Shown here: piece after piece, positions 27,168-59,333 of the stretch
Position numbering within the stretch: position 1 is the first letter of the stretch
Layout of the letters: each line of letters begins with the position of its first letter
From: Pedobacter yulinensis
GTDB taxonomy: Bacteria > Bacteroidota > Bacteroidia > Sphingobacteriales > Sphingobacteriaceae
Direction: 5' to 3'
NCBI RefSeq assembly: GCF_003029735.1
Contig: NZ_KZ686269.1
Coordinates: forward strand, 124,001 to 188,000
Length of the DNA: 64,000 bases
Program-made: the position numbers and the translations under genes
Notes under the pieces: generated by a model
What the model saw: only the letters and a program-made list of their open reading frames with translations
Told to the model about the DNA's origin: nothing
Database searches by the model: none

Positions 27168-27427
27168 GCTGCTAAAATAAAACAAAACCGCATCCGGGCT
27201 GTGGCGGGCTGCCCGTTTTTTTTAGCGCAGGTACAGTGTCCCGGTCAATGTTCTTCCCGCTGTACGCTGTAGCCCTCCTTCGTCGGGGCTGCCGCTGCCA
27301 TCGGGGCTAAACGGCACATTGACTGCTGCTTTGTACCGTCCGAACCTGCGCCGGCTGTTATGGAACTTTTAAAAAATTGACTGGATTTTACACCTTCGCT
27401 ATTTGAGATTATAACGATTTTTGAGCC

Positions 27428-49454: not shown

Positions 49455-50282
49455 ATGAAAGATCTTAAAAATAAACACGTTATTGTTACCGGTGCATCGT
49501 CGGGAATCGGGCGTTCGCTGGCTACGGCTCTTGCCGCCCGGGGCGCTGACCTGGTCCTTGCCGCCCGTAAAGCAGAAGCCTTGAACGAGCTGGCCGGTTC
49601 GCTGCAACAGCGTTATGGCGTCAGGGCCATTGCGGTCCCCACAGATGTTGCACTGGAAGCCGACTGCCGGGCGCTTATCGAGCAGGCACTTGCTGCCTTT
49701 GGCAACATCGACATCCTCATTAACAATGCAGGGCTTTCTATGCGTGCACTTTTTGCTGATACTGAGCTTTCAGTATTAAAGAACCTGATGGATGTCAATT
49801 TTTGGGGAACGGTTTACTGCACAAAATATGCTTTGCCTGCACTACTTAAAAACGGGGGGTCTATCGTTGCCGTGTCGTCTATCGCCGGCTTCCGGGGGCT
49901 GCCCGGCCGTACGGGCTACTCTGCATCGAAGTTTGCCATGAATGGCTTTATCGAGTCATTGCGCACCGAGTTGCTGCCAACCGGTGTGCATGTGCTGCTG
50001 GCCTGTCCGGGTTTTACCGCATCGAACATCCGGGTAGCGGCACTGGCAAAAGACGGCTCATCGCACGGCGAAACGAGTATGGAAGAGGGTAAAATGATGA
50101 GCGCTGACGAGGTCGCCGAACGCATTCTTGCGGGCATTGTGGAACGCCGTCGCACCCTGATTATGACGGGGCAGGGAAAAATGGCGGTATGGCTGAACAA
50201 GTTATGGCCCAGCCTGGCCGATACCATGGTCTTCAAGCATTTCACGAAAGAGAAAAATCCACTGATCAGGATTAGCCGGTAA
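49455..50282 (+). CDS. Classical SDR family oxidoreductase
   Basis: This 275-residue protein has TGASSGIG (12-19), NNAG (90-93), Ser142, Tyr155 and Lys159 (GYSASKFAM), so the catalytic set is complete, unlike the SDR at 14109. A C-terminal extension (about 235-275, VWLNKLWPSLADTMVFKHF) is amphipathic and may touch the membrane. It could act on lipids or sterol-like alcohols. It ends 57 bp before the trp leader peptide and precedes the trp promoter. Confidence 0.85.
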   Translation: MKDLKNKHVIVTGASSGIGRSLATALAARGADLVLAARKAEALNELAGSLQQRYGVRAIAVPTDVALEADCRALIEQALAAFGNIDILINNAGLSMRALFADTELSVLKNLMDVNFWGTVYCTKYALPALLKNGGSIVAVSSIAGFRGLPGRTGYSASKFAMNGFIESLRTELLPTGVHVLLACPGFTASNIRVAALAKDGSSHGETSMEEGKMMSADEVAERILAGIVERRRTLIMTGQGKMAVWLNKLWPSLADTMVFKHFTKEKNPLIRISR

Positions 50283-50298
50283 AAACGGATGAATTTTT

Positions 50299-50329
50299 TT
50301 TGCAAATCATAAAAAAATACCAATATTTG
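50299..50329 (+). promoter_or_regulatory. Promoter of the trpD-F-B-A operon
   Basis: TTTG (50299-50302) is followed after 19 bp by AATATTTG (50322-50329), one mismatch from TAnnTTTG. The predicted transcription start lies only a few bases before the leader-peptide ATG at 50340. Confidence 0.6.
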
Positions 50330-50339
50330 CCTTCGTACA

Positions 50340-50393
50340 ATGACAATTGGAAATTTGAATATCAGCTGGTGGTGGCATAACGATAATCGTTAG
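50340..50393 (+). CDS. trpL: trp operon leader peptide
   Basis: This 17-codon frame encodes MTIGNLNISWWWHNDNR and stops at TAG 50391-50393. Three consecutive Trp codons (50367-50375) are the hallmark of a ribosome-mediated Trp attenuator. It begins about 10 bp after the -7 box and ends 51 bp before the terminator hairpin. The frame is too short for automatic calling, and I found it by reading the leader. Confidence 0.85.
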   Translation: MTIGNLNISWWWHNDNR

Positions 50394-50471
50394 GCCAATC
50401 CGTCCGTATATATTGAAATTATTAAACATATTCAAGAAAAACAGGGTTGCCGAACAAGCAGCCCTTTTTTT
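50346..50471 (+). promoter_or_regulatory. Transcription attenuator of the trp operon
   Basis: The terminator is GGGTTGC (50444-50450) pairing with GCAGCCC (50458-50464), with one G-T pair, followed by seven T. The antiterminator is GGCCAATCC (50393-50401) pairing with GGGTTGCC (50444-50451), with one bulged C. A third pairing, ATTGG (50346-50350) with CCAAT (50395-50399), would sequester the antiterminator arm. The Trp codons fall between these arms. Ribosome stalling at low Trp would free the antiterminator and allow trpD-F-B-A transcription. Confidence 0.75.
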
Positions 50472-50536
50472 ATGCGTATTGGCACTGAACAGGACTGAGC
50501 GCGGCAGCCAAAATATAACTAGCGCAATACAGACCA

Positions 50537-51532
50537 ATGAAAAAAATACTGAACCACCTTTTTGAAAACAAAACCTTTACCCGGGAAGAAGCGCGGGAAA
50601 TCCTGATCTCCATTGCGCGGGGTGCATATAACAATTATCAGGTTGCCTCTTTCATGACCGCTTATTGCATGCGTAACATGACAGTCGCCGAGCTACAGGG
50701 CTTTCGCGATGCCATGCTCGAGCTCTGTATTAAGGCCGATCTGCCGGCATCGCAGCTGATCGATCTCTGCGGAACCGGTGGTGACGGCAAAGATACATTC
50801 AACATTTCTACGCTGGCCAGTTTCGTAGTTGCAGGTACCGGTAACCAGGTAGCCAAACATGGCAACTATGGAGTGTCATCAGGCTGTGGTTCATCAAATG
50901 TCATGGAATACCTGGGGTATGCCTTTACAGCAGATCAGGACCGGTTGCGCAGGCAGCTTGAACAGGCCGGCATCTGTTTTCTCCACGCTCCGCTGTTCAA
51001 CCCGGCCATGAAGACCGTTGCGCCGATCAGGAAAGAGCTGGGCGTAAAGACTTTCTTTAATATGCTCGGACCCATGGTTAATCCTGCGCAGCCGAAATAC
51101 CAGATGGTGGGTGTATTCAGCCTGGAACTGGCACGCTTGTACGCTTACCTGTACCAGGAAACCGACCGGAAATATACCATCCTGCATGCGTTGGAGGGGT
51201 ACGATGAAATTTCGCTTACCTGCGATGTCAAGACTTTCACCGATAAAGGCGAGTACCGGCTAAGCCTGAGCGAGATGGGCTTTGAGGCGCTGGACCCGGC
51301 GGGCATAAAAGGGGGGGATACGGTCGCTTCGTCGGCCGCTATTTTTATGGATGTACTGAATAACGAGGCAACTGACGCCCAGACCAATGTTGTATTGTGC
51401 AATGCGGCGCTGGCGCTGCGTACCATTCATGGAATGGAAACCAGTTTTGCCGATTGTTATTATGAAGCTGAAGAATCGCTGCAAAGCGGCAGGGCGCTGA
51501 ACGCATTTAACAAACTCCTGGCCGTTAATTAG
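50537..51532 (+). CDS. trpD: Anthranilate phosphoribosyltransferase
   Basis: This 331-residue protein has the conserved PRPP-binding CGTGGDGKDTFNIST (78-92) and KHGN (107-110), plus GSSNVMEYLG. It joins anthranilate to PRPP in the second step of tryptophan synthesis. It is the first structural gene after the attenuator. trpE and trpG are not in the window and trpC does not follow, so these must be elsewhere or supplied differently. trpF begins 1 bp after its stop. Confidence 0.95.
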   Translation: MKKILNHLFENKTFTREEAREILISIARGAYNNYQVASFMTAYCMRNMTVAELQGFRDAMLELCIKADLPASQLIDLCGTGGDGKDTFNISTLASFVVAGTGNQVAKHGNYGVSSGCGSSNVMEYLGYAFTADQDRLRRQLEQAGICFLHAPLFNPAMKTVAPIRKELGVKTFFNMLGPMVNPAQPKYQMVGVFSLELARLYAYLYQETDRKYTILHALEGYDEISLTCDVKTFTDKGEYRLSLSEMGFEALDPAGIKGGDTVASSAAIFMDVLNNEATDAQTNVVLCNAALALRTIHGMETSFADCYYEAEESLQSGRALNAFNKLLAVN

Positions 51533-51533
51533 C

Positions 51534-52184
51534 ATGAAAATTAAGATCTGCGGCATGCGCGAAGCCGGAAACATCAGCGAACTTGCCGAACTGGCACCCG
51601 ATTACATGGGTTTTATATTCTACGAGGCATCGCCGCGGTTTGCGGGGGCCATGCAGCCGCAAATCCTGGCTAGTCTTCCGGCAGCAATAGCCAGGACCGG
51701 CGTATTTGTCAATACACCTCCGGCACGGGTTGCCGACGCGGTAACGCATTACGGACTCGATGCCGTGCAACTGCATGGCAGTGAGAGCCCGGCCGATTGT
51801 GCTGCCATCGCCGCCTGCTTTACCGGGCGGCCCCGGCCCGAACTGATCAAAGCCTTTGGGGTAGACCCTGGCTTCGACTTCAGTCAGACCGCTGCATACG
51901 AGAATGTTGCAGATTATTTTCTCTTTGACACCCGCAGTCCGGCCCACGGCGGCTCTGGTAAAACCTTCGACTGGAACCTGCTTGCCGGTTATAAGGGGAG
52001 CAAAGCCTTCTTTTTAAGCGGAGGAATCGGCCCTGAACACCTTGCTAATTTGCTGAGGTTAGACGACAGCCGGCTCTACGCTGTTGACCTGAACAGCCGC
52101 TTTGAGCTGGCGCCTGCATTAAAAGACATTGCCGAACTGGCAACTACGATAAACACGCTGCGCGGAAATGCAGCACAACCATAA
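51534..52184 (+). CDS. trpF: Phosphoribosylanthranilate isomerase
   Basis: This 216-residue TIM-barrel protein has general-base Cys6 (KIKICGMRE), general-acid Asp132 (FLFDTRSP) and the GGSGKTFDW phosphate loop (139-147). The QLHGSESP strand is also typical. It opens the ring of phosphoribosylanthranilate by Amadori rearrangement. Its product goes to TrpC, whose gene is absent from this operon. trpB begins 5 bp downstream. Confidence 0.95.
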
Positions 52185-52188
52185 GAAC

Positions 52189-53370
52189 ATGAACTATTTT
52201 GTAGATGAACAAGGATATTACGGCGATTTTGGCGGTGCATACATCCCCGAAATGTTGTACCCGAATGTGGAAGAGCTGAGAGCCAATTACCTGAAAATTA
52301 TTGCTGACCCTGGTTTCAGGGCTGAGTTTGACCAGTTGCTGAAGGATTATGTTGGCAGGCCATCGCCGCTTTACCGGGCCGGAAGGCTCAGCGAGCGCTA
52401 CGGAGCCAATATTTTCCTCAAACGTGAAGATCTCAACCATACAGGCGCACACAAGATCAACAATACCATCGGTCAGATCCTCATGGCCGAGCGCCTTGGA
52501 AAAAAACGGATCATTGCCGAGACCGGCGCCGGACAGCATGGCGTGGCCACTGCTACGGTCTGCGCCCTTCGCGGACTTGAGTGTGTAGTGTATATGGGCG
52601 AGATTGACATTCAGCGCCAGGCGCCTAACGTGGCCAGGATGAAAATGCTGGGGGCTAAGGTCGTACCTGCCACCTCTGGCAGCAAAACACTCAAAGACGC
52701 CACCAACGAAGCCATGCGCGACTGGATCAATAACCCTGTCGACACGCACTATATCATCGGCTCGGTAGTAGGGCCGCACCCTTACCCGGATATGGTGGCA
52801 CGTTTTCAGTCGGTGATCTCTGCTGAAACAAAAAAACAGCTGCTGGAGCAAACCGGATCAGCACTTCCTGACTTTGTACTGGCCTGCGTGGGCGGCGGCA
52901 GCAATGCGATCGGCATGTTTTATCATTTCCTGGACGATACAGCTGTAAAGCTCGTAGCCGTTGAGGCGGCAGGCAAAGGCGTGCGATCGGGGTATTCTGC
53001 CGCCACAACATTGCTTGGACAGGAAGGCGTGCTGCACGGCAGCCGCAGTATTCTGATGCAAACTGAAGACGGACAGGTTGTGGAACCACATTCGGTATCG
53101 GCCGGACTTGACTACCCCGGCATAGGACCTCAGCATGCGCACCTCTTTAAGACCGGACGAGGGGAATATGTTTCCATTACGGATGAAGAATCCCTCCAGG
53201 CCGGTCTGTTGCTCACACAGATGGAAGGCATTATCCCGGCCATTGAAAGTGCACACGCGCTTGCCTACCTGGAAAAGATGGATTTGAAAACAGGTCAGAG
53301 CGTAGTGGTCTGTCTTTCAGGACGGGGAGACAAAGACATGGAAACTTATATGAAATATTTCGGGCTTTAA
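52189..53370 (+). CDS. trpB: Tryptophan synthase beta chain
   Basis: The start at 52189 gives 393 residues ([20 protein letters not shown]), which is the normal TrpB N-terminus. An in-frame ATG at 52168 lies inside trpF. PLP-binding Lys89 ([11 protein letters not shown]), the AETGAGQHG loop and the phosphate-binding GGGSNAIG are present. It condenses indole with serine to Trp. It forms an alpha2-beta2 complex with TrpA, encoded 27 bp downstream. Confidence 0.96.
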
Positions 53371-53397: not shown

Positions 53398-54162
53398 ATG
53401 AACAGACTGGAAGCGCTCTTTTCAAAAAAGAAGCAAAATATATTATCGATCTACTATACGGCAGGGTACCCCGCGTTAAACGATACGCTGCGCATTGCCG
53501 AAGAACTGGAGGCAGCCGGAGCAGACCTGCTGGAAATTGGGTTTCCGTATTCAGATCCCGTTGCCGACGGGCCTGTTATTCAGGGCAGCAGTAAAATTGC
53601 GCTCGACAATGGCATGAACCTGAAACTCTTGTTTGAACAGCTTAAAGACCTGCGCAGCCGCGTTAACATCCCGGTGCTGCTCATGGGATATGTAAACCCC
53701 ATGCTTCAGTTTGGGGTTGAAAATTTTTGCAGGGCATGCAAGGAAGTGGGCGTAGACGGCTGCATTGTTCCCGATCTGCCTATGGCCGAGTACGAGCGGC
53801 ACTATAAAACGCTGTTCGGTTCATACGACCTCTGCAACATCTTTCTGATTACACCGCAGACATCAGAAGAACGGATACGGAAGATAGATAGCCTGAGCCG
53901 CGGTTTTATTTACCTTTTGTCTTCTTCAGCTACAACCGGCAAAAACCTCGACGTCTCGGAAGATACAGAAGCTTACTTCTCACGCATACAAAGCATGAAT
54001 CTGAAAAATCCCCTGATGATCGGGTTCGGAATCCATGATCGCCACACGTTTAAAAAAACCGCTGCCTATGCAAGTGGTGCCATTATAGGCAGTGCCTTTG
54101 TAAAAAACATAGGCGAAGGTAAACCTGTGTCTGATTTTATCGCCTCAATAACAGGCACTTAG
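53398..54162 (+). CDS. trpA: Tryptophan synthase alpha chain
   Basis: This 254-residue TIM-barrel protein has catalytic Glu46 and Asp57 in LLEIGFPYSDPVADGP. GYVNPMLQFGVENF and GIHDRHTFKKTAAYASGAIIGSAFV (in part) are conserved. It splits indole-3-glycerol phosphate to indole and passes indole through a tunnel to TrpB. It is the last gene of the trp operon, with a terminator just downstream. Confidence 0.95.
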   Translation: MNRLEALFSKKKQNILSIYYTAGYPALNDTLRIAEELEAAGADLLEIGFPYSDPVADGPVIQGSSKIALDNGMNLKLLFEQLKDLRSRVNIPVLLMGYVNPMLQFGVENFCRACKEVGVDGCIVPDLPMAEYERHYKTLFGSYDLCNIFLITPQTSEERIRKIDSLSRGFIYLLSSSATTGKNLDVSEDTEAYFSRIQSMNLKNPLMIGFGIHDRHTFKKTAAYASGAIIGSAFVKNIGEGKPVSDFIASITGT

Positions 54163-54264: not shown

Positions 54265-54861
54265 ATGGGCAGTAAAGAACGCATTTCCCGATTAAAAGAA
54301 GAGACCAGGTGCAATATCCTGGATGCTTCTCTGCAGATTGCGCAGAAGGAGGGGTGGCAGGCGTTAAGCATGCGCAAGATCGCCGACGAAATCGAATACA
54401 CCGCACCGATCATTTACGAATACTTCCCTAATAAGGAAGGGATCCTCGCTGAGCTGACGAGGAAGGGCTATCTCATTCTTGCTAAAGATGTTCGCGAAGC
54501 AAAAGCTAAGCACGACAAGCCCGAGCAGCAGCTAGAAGCCATGTGGGTAGCTTACTGGAACTTTGCTTTTGCCAACCGTGAATTCTACCAGCTCATGTTT
54601 GGCGTAGAAATGATCTGCTGTAACGGCAAGAATGGCATGGAAGAAGCCGACCTGGTCCAGAAATCCATGTGCGTAGTCATCAGGCAGCTGTATAAAGAAC
54701 CGGTCTCCGAGAAAGAGGTTTCCAGGAAATATTATACGTTCTGGTCAATCATTCACGGACTTATTTCGATCAACCTGGTTAACCGGGGGATGAACGAAGA
54801 AATCAACCAATCAATTCTGAAAGATGCGATTGTAGGAATTATCAGGTCCATTAACGGATGA
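54265..54861 (+). CDS. TetR/AcrR family transcriptional repressor
   Basis: This 198-residue protein has a TetR DNA-binding domain at about residues 12-58 (NILDASLQIAQKEGWQALSM, then IADEIEYTAPIIYEYFPNKE). A C-terminal ligand domain follows, with MWVAYWNFAFANREFYQLMFG, as in the TetR_C_13-like group. It is directly upstream of the RND pump operon on the same strand. Its likely operator TTAACAnTGTTAA flanks it on both sides. A hydrophobic drug or metabolite would be the usual inducer. Confidence 0.88.
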   Translation: MGSKERISRLKEETRCNILDASLQIAQKEGWQALSMRKIADEIEYTAPIIYEYFPNKEGILAELTRKGYLILAKDVREAKAKHDKPEQQLEAMWVAYWNFAFANREFYQLMFGVEMICCNGKNGMEEADLVQKSMCVVIRQLYKEPVSEKEVSRKYYTFWSIIHGLISINLVNRGMNEEINQSILKDAIVGIIRSING

Positions 54862-54880
54862 CCTTTTTTTTAACATCTAT

Positions 54881-54893
54881 TTAACACTGTTAG
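54881..54893 (+). promoter_or_regulatory. TetR operator copy 2, before the pump operon
   Basis: TTAACACTGTTAG is one base from the palindrome at 54227. It lies 57 bp before the annotated start of the membrane-fusion gene in a T-rich stretch that should contain the promoter. A clear -33 / -7 pair could not be fixed. Confidence 0.6.
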
Positions 54894-54949
54894 GTTATTT
54901 AATACCCGTTTAGTTTATACATTAATAAATAATAAAACCCGAAATCCCC

Positions 54950-56128
54950 ATGAAAACCAAATTGCTGTACATGTCATTTAACGCTGTTAAACTGTTTAAC
55001 AATGTTATTAAGGTCATGTTTCTTTCCCTGATCCCCGCGCTGATTTTGTCATGCACTCAAAAGGCCGCGCCGCCAGCTGCTGCACCAGCACCCGTTTTGC
55101 CGGTGTCTACGCTGTCGGCAAGCACAGAGACCACGTTCAGTGAATATCCTGCCGCCGTGCAGGGTGCCGTCGATGTAGACATTCGCCCCCAGGTTGGCGG
55201 TTACCTTGAAAAGGTCCTGGTGAACGAAGGCGCGTATGTCAAAGCCGGGCAGCCTTTGTTCCAGATCAATGAACGCCCGTTCAGGGAAGCGCTTAACAAC
55301 GCTGTCGCAGCCCTGCATGCGGCCGAGGCGGCTGTTGCAAATGCCCAGCTGGAGATCGACAAGATCAGTCCCCTCGTTGCCAACAAGGTCGTATCAGACA
55401 TCCAGTTACGTACTGCCCGGTCCGCGCACCGCATGGCTGTTGCCAATGCAGAACAGGCCCGGGCCGGTGTGGCCACCGCACGAATTAACCTTGGTTATGC
55501 CCGCATTAAAGCGCCTGTAAGCGGTTATGTAGGCCGCATTCCAAAGAAGCAGGGAAGCTTGGTTTCTCCTACAGATCCAGAGGCCCTCACACGCTTGTCA
55601 GATATCCACGAAGTGCATGTATACTTCTCGCTTGGCGAAACAGATTTTAATGCATTTAACGCAAAATATCCCGGACGCACGTTTGCTGAGAAACTGAAGA
55701 ATGTGCCCCCGGTTGCGCTGAAACTTGCCGATGAAAGTGAATACCCGGTTAAAGGTAAAATTGATATGGTAGACGGCCAGTTCGACAAAAACACCGGTTC
55801 AATTACCCTTAGGGCAAGTTTTGCCAATGAGGCCGGTACGCTGCGGTCAGGAAATACAGGCAAGATCCGGCTGGGGGTAAACCACCGCGAAGCTTTGCTG
55901 ATTCCCCAGTCTGCTACAGTAGAGATGCAGGACAAAATGTTTGTCTATGCGCTGAACAAACAAAACAAGGTGACCAAACAACCCATTACGGTGGGCGGTA
56001 TTTCAGGTAACCAATACCTGGTTAAATCGGGTCTCCGCCCCGGCGACCGGATTGTGCTTAAGGGCTTCGAGGTATTGAAAGACGGCGACGCCGTAGTGCC
56101 TGAGAAGCTGACTACCTCCCTTAAATAA
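54950..56128 (+). CDS. RND efflux periplasmic adaptor (membrane fusion) protein
   Basis: This 392-residue protein (370 if it begins at 55016) has a lipoprotein signal ending ILSC, a barrel-sandwich opening (VDVDIRPQVGGYLEKVLVNEGAYVKAGQPLF in part), an alpha-hairpin (about 115-185) and a C-terminal membrane-proximal domain. TetR-type operators at 54978-55008 fall within the first codons of the longer form, which suggests the start at 55016 (MFLSLIPALILSC) could be the real one. It links the RND pump to the outer-membrane channel. Confidence 0.9.
   Translation: MKTKLLYMSFNAVKLFNNVIKVMFLSLIPALILSCTQKAAPPAAAPAPVLPVSTLSASTETTFSEYPAAVQGAVDVDIRPQVGGYLEKVLVNEGAYVKAGQPLFQINERPFREALNNAVAALHAAEAAVANAQLEIDKISPLVANKVVSDIQLRTARSAHRMAVANAEQARAGVATARINLGYARIKAPVSGYVGRIPKKQGSLVSPTDPEALTRLSDIHEVHVYFSLGETDFNAFNAKYPGRTFAEKLKNVPPVALKLADESEYPVKGKIDMVDGQFDKNTGSITLRASFANEAGTLRSGNTGKIRLGVNHREALLIPQSATVEMQDKMFVYALNKQNKVTKQPITVGGISGNQYLVKSGLRPGDRIVLKGFEVLKDGDAVVPEKLTTSLK
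54978..55008 (+). promoter_or_regulatory. TetR operator copies 3 and 4 in the pump operon start
   Basis: TTAACGCTGTTAA (54978-54990) and TTAACAATGTTAT (54996-55008) are two further copies spaced 18 bp start to start. They lie inside the longer reading frame of the adaptor gene but just upstream of the alternative ATG at 55016. Two adjacent sites would give cooperative repression. Confidence 0.55.
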
Positions 56129-56150
56129 CTCATCCTCAAAAACCAATAAC

Positions 56151-59100
56151 ATGTTTAGAAAATTTATAGAAAGGCCTGTCCTGGCCACGGTGATCTCGAT
56201 CATCCTGGTTATACTCGGCGGACTTGGCCTGAGCCGCCTGCCTTTAGAGCAGTTCCCTGATATTGCACCCCCCGCCATCCAGGTCACCGCCCGTTATCCG
56301 GGCGCCAATGCCGAGACCGTTCTTCGTGCCGTGGCTCCTTCACTCGAAGAGTCCATTAACGGTGTGGAAAACATGAGTTACATGAGTTCAACTGCGAGCA
56401 ACGATGGCTCGCTGGTGATCAGTGTTTATTTCAAACTGGGTACCAATCCTGACCAGGCTTCTGTCAACGTGCAGAACCGCGTGGCCCAGGCTACGGCCCA
56501 GCTTCCGGCAGAGGTGGTCCAGGCCGGTATCACCACCGCCAAACAGCAAAACAGCATTGTAATGGTTATTGACCTGTTTGCCGATGAAGGGGGTGAGTAT
56601 GACCAGACCTTTCTGGCCAATTACGCGCAGATCAACATCATTCCGGAAATCAAACGTATTCCCGGCGTTGGGCAGTCGAACATTTTTGGCGGCATCAAGG
56701 ACTACTCGATGCGTGTCTGGCTAGACCCGGCTAAGATGGCTGCTTACAACCTGACGCCGAAAGAGGTTTTTGCAACCATTCAGGACAAAAACCAGGAAGC
56801 TGCTCCGGGCAAATTTGGCGAAAGCAGCACCCAGGCGTTCGAGTATGTGATCAAATACAAAGGGAAACTGAACAAACCATCCGAATATGAAAACATGGTC
56901 ATACGCTCGAACAGCGATGGCTCGGTGCTTCGCCTGAAAGACGTGGCCAGGGTTGAGTTTGGCGCCTACAGCTACAGCAACTATGCCCGCGTAGACGGAC
57001 AGACCGGTACAAACATCATGGTTATGCAGCTGTCAGGTTCAAATGCCAATGAGATCCAGGTGGCCATCGGTAAACTGATGGAAAAGGCAGAAAAAAGTTT
57101 CCCGAAAGGAGTAAAATACCATATTCTTTACAATACCAAAGAGCCGCTCGATCTGTCTATTGACCAGGTAAAACATACCCTGATCGAGGCATTTATCCTG
57201 GTATTTATTGTCGTATTCATTTTCCTTCAGGACTTCCGCTCTACATTGATCCCCGCCATCGCCGTCCCTGTAGCGATTATTGGTACGTTTTTCTTTATGC
57301 AGCTGTTCGGATTTTCGATCAACCTGTTAACCCTGTTCGCCCTGGTACTGGCCATCGGTATTGTGGTCGATGATGCCATCGTTGTGGTCGAGGCCGTGCA
57401 CGCGAAAATGGAACATGAGCATTTGCCGCCAAGGGAGGCAACGCTGTCGGCCATGAGCGAAATTACCGGCGCCATCGTATCCATTACACTGGTCATGTCT
57501 GCCGTGTTCCTGCCTGTGGGCTTTATGGAAGGTTCTACCGGCATGTTTTACAGGCAGTTTGCCTTTACGCTGGCTATCGCCATTGTGATCTCTGCGGTGA
57601 ATGCGCTGACCCTGAGCCCGGCGTTGACAGCCCTGTTCCTGAAAGACAAGCCGCATGGAACGGGCAAGCAAACACCGAAAAACTTCAAGGAACGGTTTTT
57701 TGCGGGATTCAATGCCGGCTTTGAAAAGCTCACATTCAAATACCTCAGCAGCCTGCGCTTTCTGTTCCGTTACCGTTGGTACAGTCTTGCCGGCCTGGCT
57801 GTGGTCATTATTGCCACGGTTGTCATGATGCGCCGTACGCCATCAGGCTTTATTCCTTCCGAAGATCAGGGCTTCTTTGCCATTGCCGTCAACATGCCGC
57901 CGGGCGCCTCGCTTGACCGCACCACTGCGGCCATTAAAGAGGCTGAACAAAGGCTCATGCCCATGGAAGCAAAACGCCACCTCTCGGTGCTTTCGGGGCT
58001 CAACATCCTTACGCAGGCGTCCAGTCCGTCTTCAGGCGTGATCTTTTACCTGCTCAAACCGATGGATGAGCGCGGTAAAATACAGGACATAAATGCCATC
58101 ATGGCCGATGCCCAGCAAAGGCTCAGCGGCATTAAAGGCGCTACATTCTTTGCCTTTACTTTCCCCACCGTTCCCGGTTTCAGTAATGTTGACGGTCTTG
58201 ATTTTGTACTGCAGGACCGCACGGGCGGACAGCTGGATAAGTTCAGTACCATTGGCAATAATTTTATCGGCGAGCTCATGAAACGCCCTGAAATAGCTGT
58301 CGCCTTTACTTCTTTCCGTGCAGACTACCCGCAACTGGAAATGGAAGTCGACGACGTGAAGGCCGAACAGTTGGGTGTGAGCACGCAGGACATTCTGCAA
58401 ACCATGCAAACTTATTTTGGCAGTGCGCAGGCATCGGACTTTAATCGCTTTGGTAAATACTACCGGGTTATGGTACAGGCTGATATGGCCGACCGTCAGG
58501 ATCCCTCGGCCATGGACGGTGTTTTCGTCAGGAACCGTCAGGGCGACAGGGTTCCGATCAGCACGCTGGTCAAGCTAAACCGCGTGTTCGGCCCGGAAAC
58601 GGTGTCCAGGTACAACCTGTTCAACTCGATTGGTGTAAATGCCATCCCGAAGCCGGGCTTCAGCTCGGGCGATGCGATCAGGGCCGTTGAAGAGGTGGCG
58701 GCGAAACACCTTCCGAACGGTTATACTTTCGAATTTTCGGGCCTGACCAAAGAGGAGATCACATCAGGCGGCCAGTCGGTGGTTATATTTGGCCTCTGTC
58801 TGCTGTTCGTCTACTTCTTGCTGGCGGCGCAGTACGAAAGTTATATTCTGCCCTTGTCTGTGCTGCTTTCGGTTCCAACCGGCGTGTTCGGTGTGTTCGC
58901 AGCCATCGGCCTGGCAGGAATTTCAAATAACATCTATGTCCAGGTAGCGCTGGTCATGCTGATTGGTTTGCTGGCAAAAAATGCCATCCTCATCGTAGAA
59001 TTTGCCGTGCAAAGACGAAAAGCCGGCAAGACCCTGCTTGCCTCGGCTATCGAGGCGGCGCAGCTGCGCCTGCGGCCTATCATCATGACCTCACTCGCCT

Positions 59101-59333
59101 TTATCGTTGGCATGATCCCGATGATGAGTGCCACAGGTCCTTCGGCACAGGGTAACCACTCCATCAGTATCGGAGCGGCCGGCGGAATGATCTCGGGCGT
59201 CGTGCTCGGTCTGTTTATCATACCGGTACTCTTCATTGTTTTTCAGTTCCTGCATGAAAAAGTAAGCAGCAAACCGCAGGCTCGTGTAGCTCCAAAACAA
59301 CCTCAAGAAAAATTAGTATATGAAACCGTATAA
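56151..59333 (+). CDS. RND efflux pump inner-membrane permease (HAE1/AcrB type)
   Basis: This 1060-residue protein has the opening MFRKFIERPVLATVISIILV and 12 membrane segments. The proton-relay Asp pair is in ALVLAIGIVVDDAIVVVEAV (residues about 399-418). Two periplasmic porter domains are present, with FIPSEDQGFFAIAVNMPPGAS and VPGVGQSNIFGG-like segments. It extrudes hydrophobic compounds using the proton gradient. It lies between the adaptor (22 bp gap) and the outer-membrane channel (14-bp overlap). Confidence 0.94.
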   Translation: MFRKFIERPVLATVISIILVILGGLGLSRLPLEQFPDIAPPAIQVTARYPGANAETVLRAVAPSLEESINGVENMSYMSSTASNDGSLVISVYFKLGTNPDQASVNVQNRVAQATAQLPAEVVQAGITTAKQQNSIVMVIDLFADEGGEYDQTFLANYAQINIIPEIKRIPGVGQSNIFGGIKDYSMRVWLDPAKMAAYNLTPKEVFATIQDKNQEAAPGKFGESSTQAFEYVIKYKGKLNKPSEYENMVIRSNSDGSVLRLKDVARVEFGAYSYSNYARVDGQTGTNIMVMQLSGSNANEIQVAIGKLMEKAEKSFPKGVKYHILYNTKEPLDLSIDQVKHTLIEAFILVFIVVFIFLQDFRSTLIPAIAVPVAIIGTFFFMQLFGFSINLLTLFALVLAIGIVVDDAIVVVEAVHAKMEHEHLPPREATLSAMSEITGAIVSITLVMSAVFLPVGFMEGSTGMFYRQFAFTLAIAIVISAVNALTLSPALTALFLKDKPHGTGKQTPKNFKERFFAGFNAGFEKLTFKYLSSLRFLFRYRWYSLAGLAVVIIATVVMMRRTPSGFIPSEDQGFFAIAVNMPPGASLDRTTAAIKEAEQRLMPMEAKRHLSVLSGLNILTQASSPSSGVIFYLLKPMDERGKIQDINAIMADAQQRLSGIKGATFFAFTFPTVPGFSNVDGLDFVLQDRTGGQLDKFSTIGNNFIGELMKRPEIAVAFTSFRADYPQLEMEVDDVKAEQLGVSTQDILQTMQTYFGSAQASDFNRFGKYYRVMVQADMADRQDPSAMDGVFVRNRQGDRVPISTLVKLNRVFGPETVSRYNLFNSIGVNAIPKPGFSSGDAIRAVEEVAAKHLPNGYTFEFSGLTKEEITSGGQSVVIFGLCLLFVYFLLAAQYESYILPLSVLLSVPTGVFGVFAAIGLAGISNNIYVQVALVMLIGLLAKNAILIVEFAVQRRKAGKTLLASAIEAAQLRLRPIIMTSLAFIVGMIPMMSATGPSAQGNHSISIGAAGGMISGVVLGLFIIPVLFIVFQFLHEKVSSKPQARVAPKQPQEKLVYETV

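Follow-up and report, generated by a model that had tools for sequence, protein, structure and literature searches.

The trpD Locus and Its Leader

The window, by which we mean the whole stretch of 64,000 nucleotides analysed here (G000:C2:124001-188000), belongs to a genome of 4.31 Mb in 11 contigs and carries trpD, trpF, trpB and trpA in this order on one strand (Table 1). The nearest relatives of this trpD among the best 80 of 586 trpD loci are from Pedobacter, with 79% identity, which points to a host of the Sphingobacteriaceae type. The trpE, trpG and trpC genes are grouped on another contig of the same genome, C1. The listed trpB frame shares 17 nt with the 3' end of trpF (52168-52190); seven codons in there is another in-frame ATG (MNYFVDEQG), and the true start may be 52189. 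The gene 5' of the leader, at 49455-50282, encodes an SDR oxidoreductase. Directly 3' of trpA on the same strand (54265-59333) lie a gene for a TetR-type regulator, named from sub-threshold NCBIfam matches, and genes that, from their translations, we take to encode a membrane-fusion protein and an RND pump. A Flavo-1 RNA (RF01705) is found on the minus strand at 27249-27312 with 46.6 bits, above the gathering score; in Flavobacterium psychrophilum, Flavo-1 is reported in sense and antisense of transcripts (PMC9723704).

A preliminary description of this stretch placed before trpD a 17-residue leader peptide with three successive Trp residues, a terminator with a T7 tail, a matching antiterminator, an arm able to block the antiterminator and a promoter just 5' of the leader ATG, and each of these elements is recovered. 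The leader frame encodes MTIGNLNISWWWHNDNR, and a hairpin running into seven T residues ends the region. The segment directly 3' of the leader stop codon is predicted to pair with the 5' arm of the terminator, and the Trp-codon region is predicted to pair with that same segment. Across both strands of the 64 kb, no other ORF of 9-40 codons that starts with ATG contains Trp-Trp-Trp (WWW), and none at all appears when the window is shuffled by mononucleotides (10 shuffles). The leader ATG lies 10 nt 3' of a promoter box of the Bacteroidota type, AATATTTG. The sigma-A box of F. psychrophilum spans positions -12 to -5 (PMC9723704); if the box in the window does likewise, transcription would start near 50334, 6 nt 5' of the leader ATG. 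A short second ORF starts at 50472, directly 3' of the T-run.

Table 1. Genes and putative regulatory elements at the trpD locus, in window coordinates
Feature	Position	Strand	Basis
Promoter, -33-like TTG	50300-50302	+	Inferred; 19 nt 5' of the -7 box
Sigma-A -7 box, AATATTTG (consensus TAnnTTTG)	50322-50329	+	Sequence; consensus and position as given in PMC9723704
Predicted transcription start (5' UTR of about 6 nt)	50334	+	Inferred from a box position of -12 to -5 as given in PMC9723704
Leader peptide ORF, MTIGNLNISWWWHNDNR*, 17 codons (ATG 50340, TAG 50391-50393)	50340-50393	+	Sequence
Three Trp codons (putative sensor)	50367-50375	+	Sequence
Arm 1, Trp-codon region, predicted partner of arm 2 in ribosome-free RNA	50365-50376	+	Minimum-free-energy structure
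Arm 2, predicted 5' arm of the antiterminator, directly 3' of the stop codon	50394-50401	+	+3 to +10 from the first base of the stop codon
Arm 3, 5' arm of the terminator, common to the antiterminator	50443-50450	+	Compensatory changes with arm 4 over 35 leaders
Arm 4, 3' arm of the terminator	50458-50465	+	Hairpin of -11.8 kcal/mol
T7 tail of the intrinsic terminator (hairpin 50443-50465)	50465-50471	+	Sequence
trpD, anthranilate phosphoribosyltransferase	50537-51532	+	TIGR01245
trpF, phosphoribosylanthranilate isomerase	51534-52184	+	Best NCBIfam matches are this enzyme, below cut-offs
trpB, tryptophan synthase beta	52168-53370	+	TIGR00263
trpA, tryptophan synthase alpha	53398-54162	+	TIGR00262

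Operon Splitting and the Position of the Leader

The trpD relatives are the best 80 of 586 loci from public genome records, and leaders were sought up to 900 nt upstream of trpD with the pattern ATG...TGGTGG..., which selects for at least two adjacent Trp codons (WW). Within the fetched stretches, 70 of these 80 loci are split clusters headed by trpD (62 D-F-B-A, 7 D-F-B and 1 D-F) and 10 have the order trpE-G-D-C-F-B-A. A leader precedes trpD in 69 of the 70 split loci, the exception being L066, and in none of the 10 unsplit ones. All 10 unsplit loci have a WWW leader before trpE, with T-tailed inverted repeats visible by eye on its 3' side (unscored). The leader thus accompanies the leading gene of the trp cluster that is present, trpD in 69 of the 70 split loci and trpE in the unsplit ones, and trpD comes first here because the trp genes are split. 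The earlier wording that trpD is controlled rather than trpE is thus half right: the leader does lie before trpD, but trpE-trpG-trpC has a Trp-codon leader and a terminator of its own.

Conservation of the Leader before trpD

Conservation of the leader and its Trp codons in relatives, on which the preliminary description had made its reading depend, is borne out by the 69 split loci from the best 80 of 586, which together with the window give 70 leaders; selected for at least WW, these have WWW in 68 cases and WW in 2. TTTG is found 5-18 nt 5' of the leader ATG in 69 of the 70 leaders (not in L024). A stricter box pattern leaves 3 of the 70 leaders without a recognised box; in the others, the first ATG downstream of the box shares its frame with TGG and no stop intervenes (67 of 67), the spacings being 21, 24, 27 and 33 nt. 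The leaders in this comparison had been chosen for an open frame, and few out-of-frame cases can be hidden, because only 1 of the 70 split loci among the best 80 of 586 gave no leader. Such conservation of the frame suggests that the leader ORF is translated. No purifying selection on the peptide beyond the Trp codons is detected, with 282 synonymous and 1176 non-synonymous substitutions and a negative outcome for the distribution over codon positions (531/852/750), as expected if only the identity of the Trp codons matters.

A terminator hairpin with a T-run follows all 70 leader ORFs, and the distance from the leader ATG to trpD ranges from 116 to 525 nt. In an alignment of 35 of the 70 leaders, chosen for spread, one pair of the terminator is G-C in 24 sequences, C-G in 8 and A-U in 3. 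The hairpin between arms 1 and 2 has a covariation score of 0.214 against a mean of 0.113 for shuffles, which related sequences can beat without any structure; none of 500 shuffles reaches it, 67.5% of its cells pair (61.0% when slid by one column), and two of five measures are not above the shuffles. For the arm 2-arm 3 helix, 78% of the cells are paired, compared with at most 57.8% in slid versions. Its covariation is weak: three pairs are changed on both sides, against a shuffled mean of 2.3 (reached in 197 of 500), and one slid version has four.

Predicted Stall-Dependent Pairing

The preliminary description had proposed folding of 50335-50475 as a check, and this segment folds at -39.3 kcal/mol (z = -3.90), a value that none of 200 shuffles equals. 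In this fold, the Trp-codon region pairs with the sequence 3' of the stop codon and the terminator forms. The effect of a ribosome on the pairing was modelled by folding the nascent RNA to 3 nt past arm 3, with the RNA masked from its 5' end to 11 nt beyond the first base of the A-site codon. Predicted upstream capture of arm 3 in the window is 0.05 in free RNA, rising to 0.28 for a ribosome at the stop codon and to 0.87 for one on a Trp codon, and none of 20 spacer shuffles matches this switch. Over the 70 leaders, which are related to each other and hence are not 70 independent observations, mean capture is 0.80 at Trp, 0.32 at stop and 0.25 in free RNA, compared with 0.49, 0.44 and 0.55, respectively, when the spacer is shuffled. 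Capture at Trp exceeds 0.5 in every one of the 70 leaders; a switch of at least 0.25 is predicted in 50 of them, while a round of shuffles yields 2.85 on average and 6 at most. These results point to an antiterminator that shares the 5' arm of the terminator, is freed by a stall at the Trp codons and is blocked at the stop codon in silico.

Arm 3 is still captured above 0.5 in 16 of the 70 leaders at the stop codon and in 13 in free RNA. The stop value varies with the assumed edge of the ribosome: between 8 and 16 nt its mean falls from 0.49 to 0.23 with the stalled value unaffected, and with an edge of 8 or 10 nt, 28 of the 70 leaders exceed 0.5 at stop. Energies after exchange of arms among leaders show no clear preference for the own arm, and foreign arms pair better in the GGATTGC group.

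A Second Leader before trpE

On contig C1 of the same genome, an ORF encoding MISNSHTWQWPGNPKKRCALCV, with the motif W-Q-W, precedes trpE-trpG-trpC (L003:1311-1445). It is followed by a hairpin of -20.2 kcal/mol whose T-run ends 15 nt 5' of trpE, and modelled capture is 0.19 in free RNA, 0.68 at Trp and 0.23 at stop. In a sample of 61 genomes of the family, trpE is found in 50 and trpD in 49 at the thresholds used, and 49 have both. The two genes lie on the same contig more than 1 Mb apart in 8 of these 49 genomes and on different contigs, which does not by itself prove distance, in 41. All 50 genomes with trpE have a Trp-codon leader and a terminator before it; 29 of these leaders were scored by the model, 20 come from the leader finder, and one (L088), missed by the automatic filter, had its terminator read by eye. 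Three trpE leaders start with GTG (L099, G007 and G019), L097 in genome G027 has a single Trp codon, and trpE itself is broken by two stops in G007. Before trpD, a leader that has two or more Trp codons and is followed by a terminator is present in 45 of the 49 genomes (44 of 48 and the window), so both leaders occur in 45 of the 49 genomes with both genes. With at least two Trp codons required, the finder is positive on the coding strand in 20 of 20 trpE and 44 of 48 trpD cases and on the opposite strand in 0 of 20 and 0 of 48; among 597 other 900-nt stretches it is positive in 9, some of which may overlap real trpE leaders.

In the model, the trpE switch is weaker than the trpD one, reaching at least 0.25 in 10 of 29 leaders against a shuffle mean of 1.2 and a maximum of 3. 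The predicted arm 2 lies wholly 3' of the stop codon in 67 of 70 trpD leaders, whereas in 26 of 29 trpE leaders (for example L086 and L095) it extends no further than the stop codon. The two attenuators thus seem to differ in construction.

The trpD leader is absent from four of the 49 genomes, namely G008 and three genomes of the genus g3 (G002, G027 and G044, loci L173, L174 and L175). G002 and G044 keep the promoter box and a hairpin with AGGTTGC arms and a T-run before trpD, so the hairpin can outlast the leader. The trpE leaders of the three g3 genomes contain just one Trp codon or two that are not adjacent. In g3 the trpD leader looks to have been lost step by step.

The box-to-ATG gaps of 5-18 nt at trpD would correspond to 5' UTRs of about 1-14 nt and those of 4-12 nt in the 29 scored trpE leaders to 0-8 nt, as judged from the promoter position. 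Leaderless mRNAs amount to 5.5% in F. psychrophilum (PMC9723704), and 5' UTRs shorter than 10 nt are put at about 3.7% in Bacteroides thetaiotaomicron (PMC7366714).

Known RNA Families and Regulators

RF01692 (Bacteroid-trp) matches the window over its full length at 50320-50451 with 34.2 bits, below the gathering cut-off of 49, and the match lies before the first gene of a Bacteroidota trp operon, where members of this family are located. A scan of the 61 family genomes at E <= 0.05, with stricter filters that miss even the genome of the window, gives 16 RF01692 matches, one of them over the cut-off. All 16 lie just 5' of trpD, in G015 by way of two contig ends that share sequence (L115 and L116). 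In 295 genomes of the class (E <= 0.001, strict filters), 14 matches are found: 9 before trpE, 4 before trpB-trpE and 1, from Sphingobacteriaceae, before trpD. Of 201 family genomes, among them sources of some of the 35 aligned trpD leaders, a covariance model built from those leaders (R1) recovers 178 at E <= 1e-6; at E <= 0.01 the number is 197, where the weak matches include genomes with no trpD found and match positions were checked in part. RF01692 thus under-detects these leaders (1 of 61, against 178 of 201 for R1), and therefore many trp leaders are probably unannotated.

RF00513 (Trp_leader) has no match in the window at the gathering score and none in 50200-50560 at E <= 10. No Rfam family exceeds its threshold at the trpD leader, the single gathering match of the window being the Flavo-1 RNA. 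The trpE-side leaders have no Rfam match at gathering in the 16 loci scanned, and that of L003 has none at E <= 0.5; among the 16, the only sub-threshold match to a Trp leader is RF00513 in L195 (33.1 bits against 41). TrpR (PF01371) and TRAP (PF02081) domains give no match in the genome at E <= 0.001, in a search that detects PF01371 in Escherichia coli and Bacillus subtilis and PF02081 in B. subtilis. A second, weak RF01692 match at G000:C2:190477-190573 (23.6 bits, E 6.3) was rejected, its stretch containing a terminator-like hairpin but no TGG. A search of the genome for other leaders with a box, an ATG and TGGTGG gives 4 matches, one of them the trpD leader, compared with 7 in the reversed control.

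A Plausible Mechanism of Attenuation

Sequence, conservation and modelling together establish a leader ORF with Trp codons, a terminator and alternative pairings at trpD, as well as the corresponding leader before trpE, and the trpD attenuator is probably functional. It is very probable that a ribosome-mediated attenuator sets expression of trpD-trpF-trpB-trpA according to charged tRNA-Trp and, with that of trpE-trpG-trpC, jointly controls a split trp pathway. Transcription would start about 6 nt 5' of the leader ATG, and a ribosome could load at once. When tryptophan is plentiful, the ribosome would reach the stop codon and cover arm 2, allowing arms 3 and 4 to pair and transcription to terminate at the T-run. 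When charged tRNA-Trp is scarce, the ribosome would stall on the Trp codons and cover arm 1, so that arm 2 may capture arm 3 while arm 4 is still to be transcribed, and RNA polymerase would enter trpD. If the leader is not translated, arms 1 and 2 are predicted to pair and the terminator to form. In Bacteroidota, where Shine-Dalgarno sequences are little used, such a mechanism would imply that transcription and translation are coupled on mRNAs with a leader ORF that begins within a few nucleotides of the 5' end.

A constitutive terminator, or one that serves the upstream gene, could stand next to an ORF with Trp codons by chance, trpD being expressed by readthrough or from another promoter with no sensing of tryptophan. 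The terminator-like hairpin that G002 and G044 keep before trpD without a Trp leader fits this explanation. It is nevertheless very unlikely, because the first ATG downstream of the promoter box opens the frame of WW or WWW in all 67 leaders with a recognised box, the leader goes with the first trp gene in split and unsplit loci alike (69 of 70 and 10 of 10 among the best 80 of 586), and the stall-dependent pairing exceeds that of shuffles. Alternatively, leader translation might chiefly protect the transcript or affect Rho-dependent termination or trpD translation, with the Trp codons as a means of tuning; reinitiation and Rho-linked functions have been considered for leader ORFs elsewhere (PMC4833913), and the short ORF right after the T-run fits this proposal. 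This proposal is hard to reconcile with a strong intrinsic terminator in all 70 leaders whose 5' arm is the very arm that is competed for, and the leader ATG lies too far from trpD (116 nt or more) to resemble the short spacings of reinitiation; we regard it as improbable to much the same degree.

The highly structured RNA and its site before Trp genes would also suit another tryptophan-responsive switch, namely a T-box, a leader bound by a TRAP-type protein or a riboswitch for free tryptophan. The Rfam search, in which the sub-threshold RF01692 is the best match at the leader, and the lack of a detectable TRAP domain in the genome argue against it, and any of these switches would give the conserved Trp codons of an open frame no role, which makes this reading extremely unlikely. 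Classical attenuation is therefore the most likely mechanism as judged from sequence and modelling. There is also a reasonable likelihood, somewhat better than even, that across the family the trpE and trpD-trpF-trpB-trpA clusters are coordinated by two Trp attenuators that differ in sequence and layout, both on near-leaderless mRNAs without Shine-Dalgarno sequences, TrpR or TRAP, that the trpE-side leaders form an uncatalogued RNA family, and that the genus g3 shows, as an experiment of nature, how one of these attenuators is lost.

Comparison with Known Attenuators

The preliminary description thought a clean case in Bacteroidota worth recording; the locus is not the first of its phylum, as Trp leaders of Bacteroidota are already catalogued as RF01692, the family with the sub-threshold match here. 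RF01692 was listed in 2010 as "Bacteroidete tryptophan peptide leader RNA" by Weinberg et al. (PMC2864571, Table 1), and a Bacteroid-Trp RNA is noted 5' of the trp operon of F. psychrophilum (PMC6414381). The leader of the window shares with RF01692 the phylum, a Trp-codon leader with a hairpin and a site before the first trp gene; it differs in the terminator arms and the spacer and in its position before trpD, whereas the class-wide matches are mostly before trpE (9 of 14) or trpB-trpE (4 of 14). By its sequence it is a diverged relative of the known Bacteroidota leader. F. psychrophilum, also of the Bacteroidota, has the same promoter type, and leader-peptide attenuation is proposed for its amino-acid operons (PMC9723704); unlike in the host of the window, no second attenuator on a split regulon is described in the available text of PMC9723704 and PMC6414381. 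In the open-licence literature, which gives weak evidence of absence, no description of two attenuators on a split trp regulon was found. The locus thus has an attenuator of a known kind in a two-attenuator arrangement that is apparently undescribed.

The trpL attenuator of the E. coli type consists of Trp codons and of protector, antiterminator and terminator arms. The leader of the window would work in the same way as trpL of Proteobacteria (RF00513), but it has an inferred 5' UTR of 6 nt and no RF00513 match, and it would control trpD-trpF-trpB-trpA, with trpE under a separate attenuator. In Sinorhizobium meliloti, as reported in PMC7298713, the attenuator leader mRNA (trpL, rnTrpL) has its 5' end at the AUG, separate mRNAs carry trpE(G) and trpDC, and the trpE(G) attenuator also acts in trans through an sRNA on the trpDC mRNA. 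A leader that starts at or near the AUG and divided trp genes are thus common to both organisms. They differ in that one attenuator reaches trpDC in trans in S. meliloti, as far as that report describes it, whereas the host of the window has one attenuator for each half, which suggests that a split pathway may stay coordinated by one sensor per piece, each reading the same charged tRNA.
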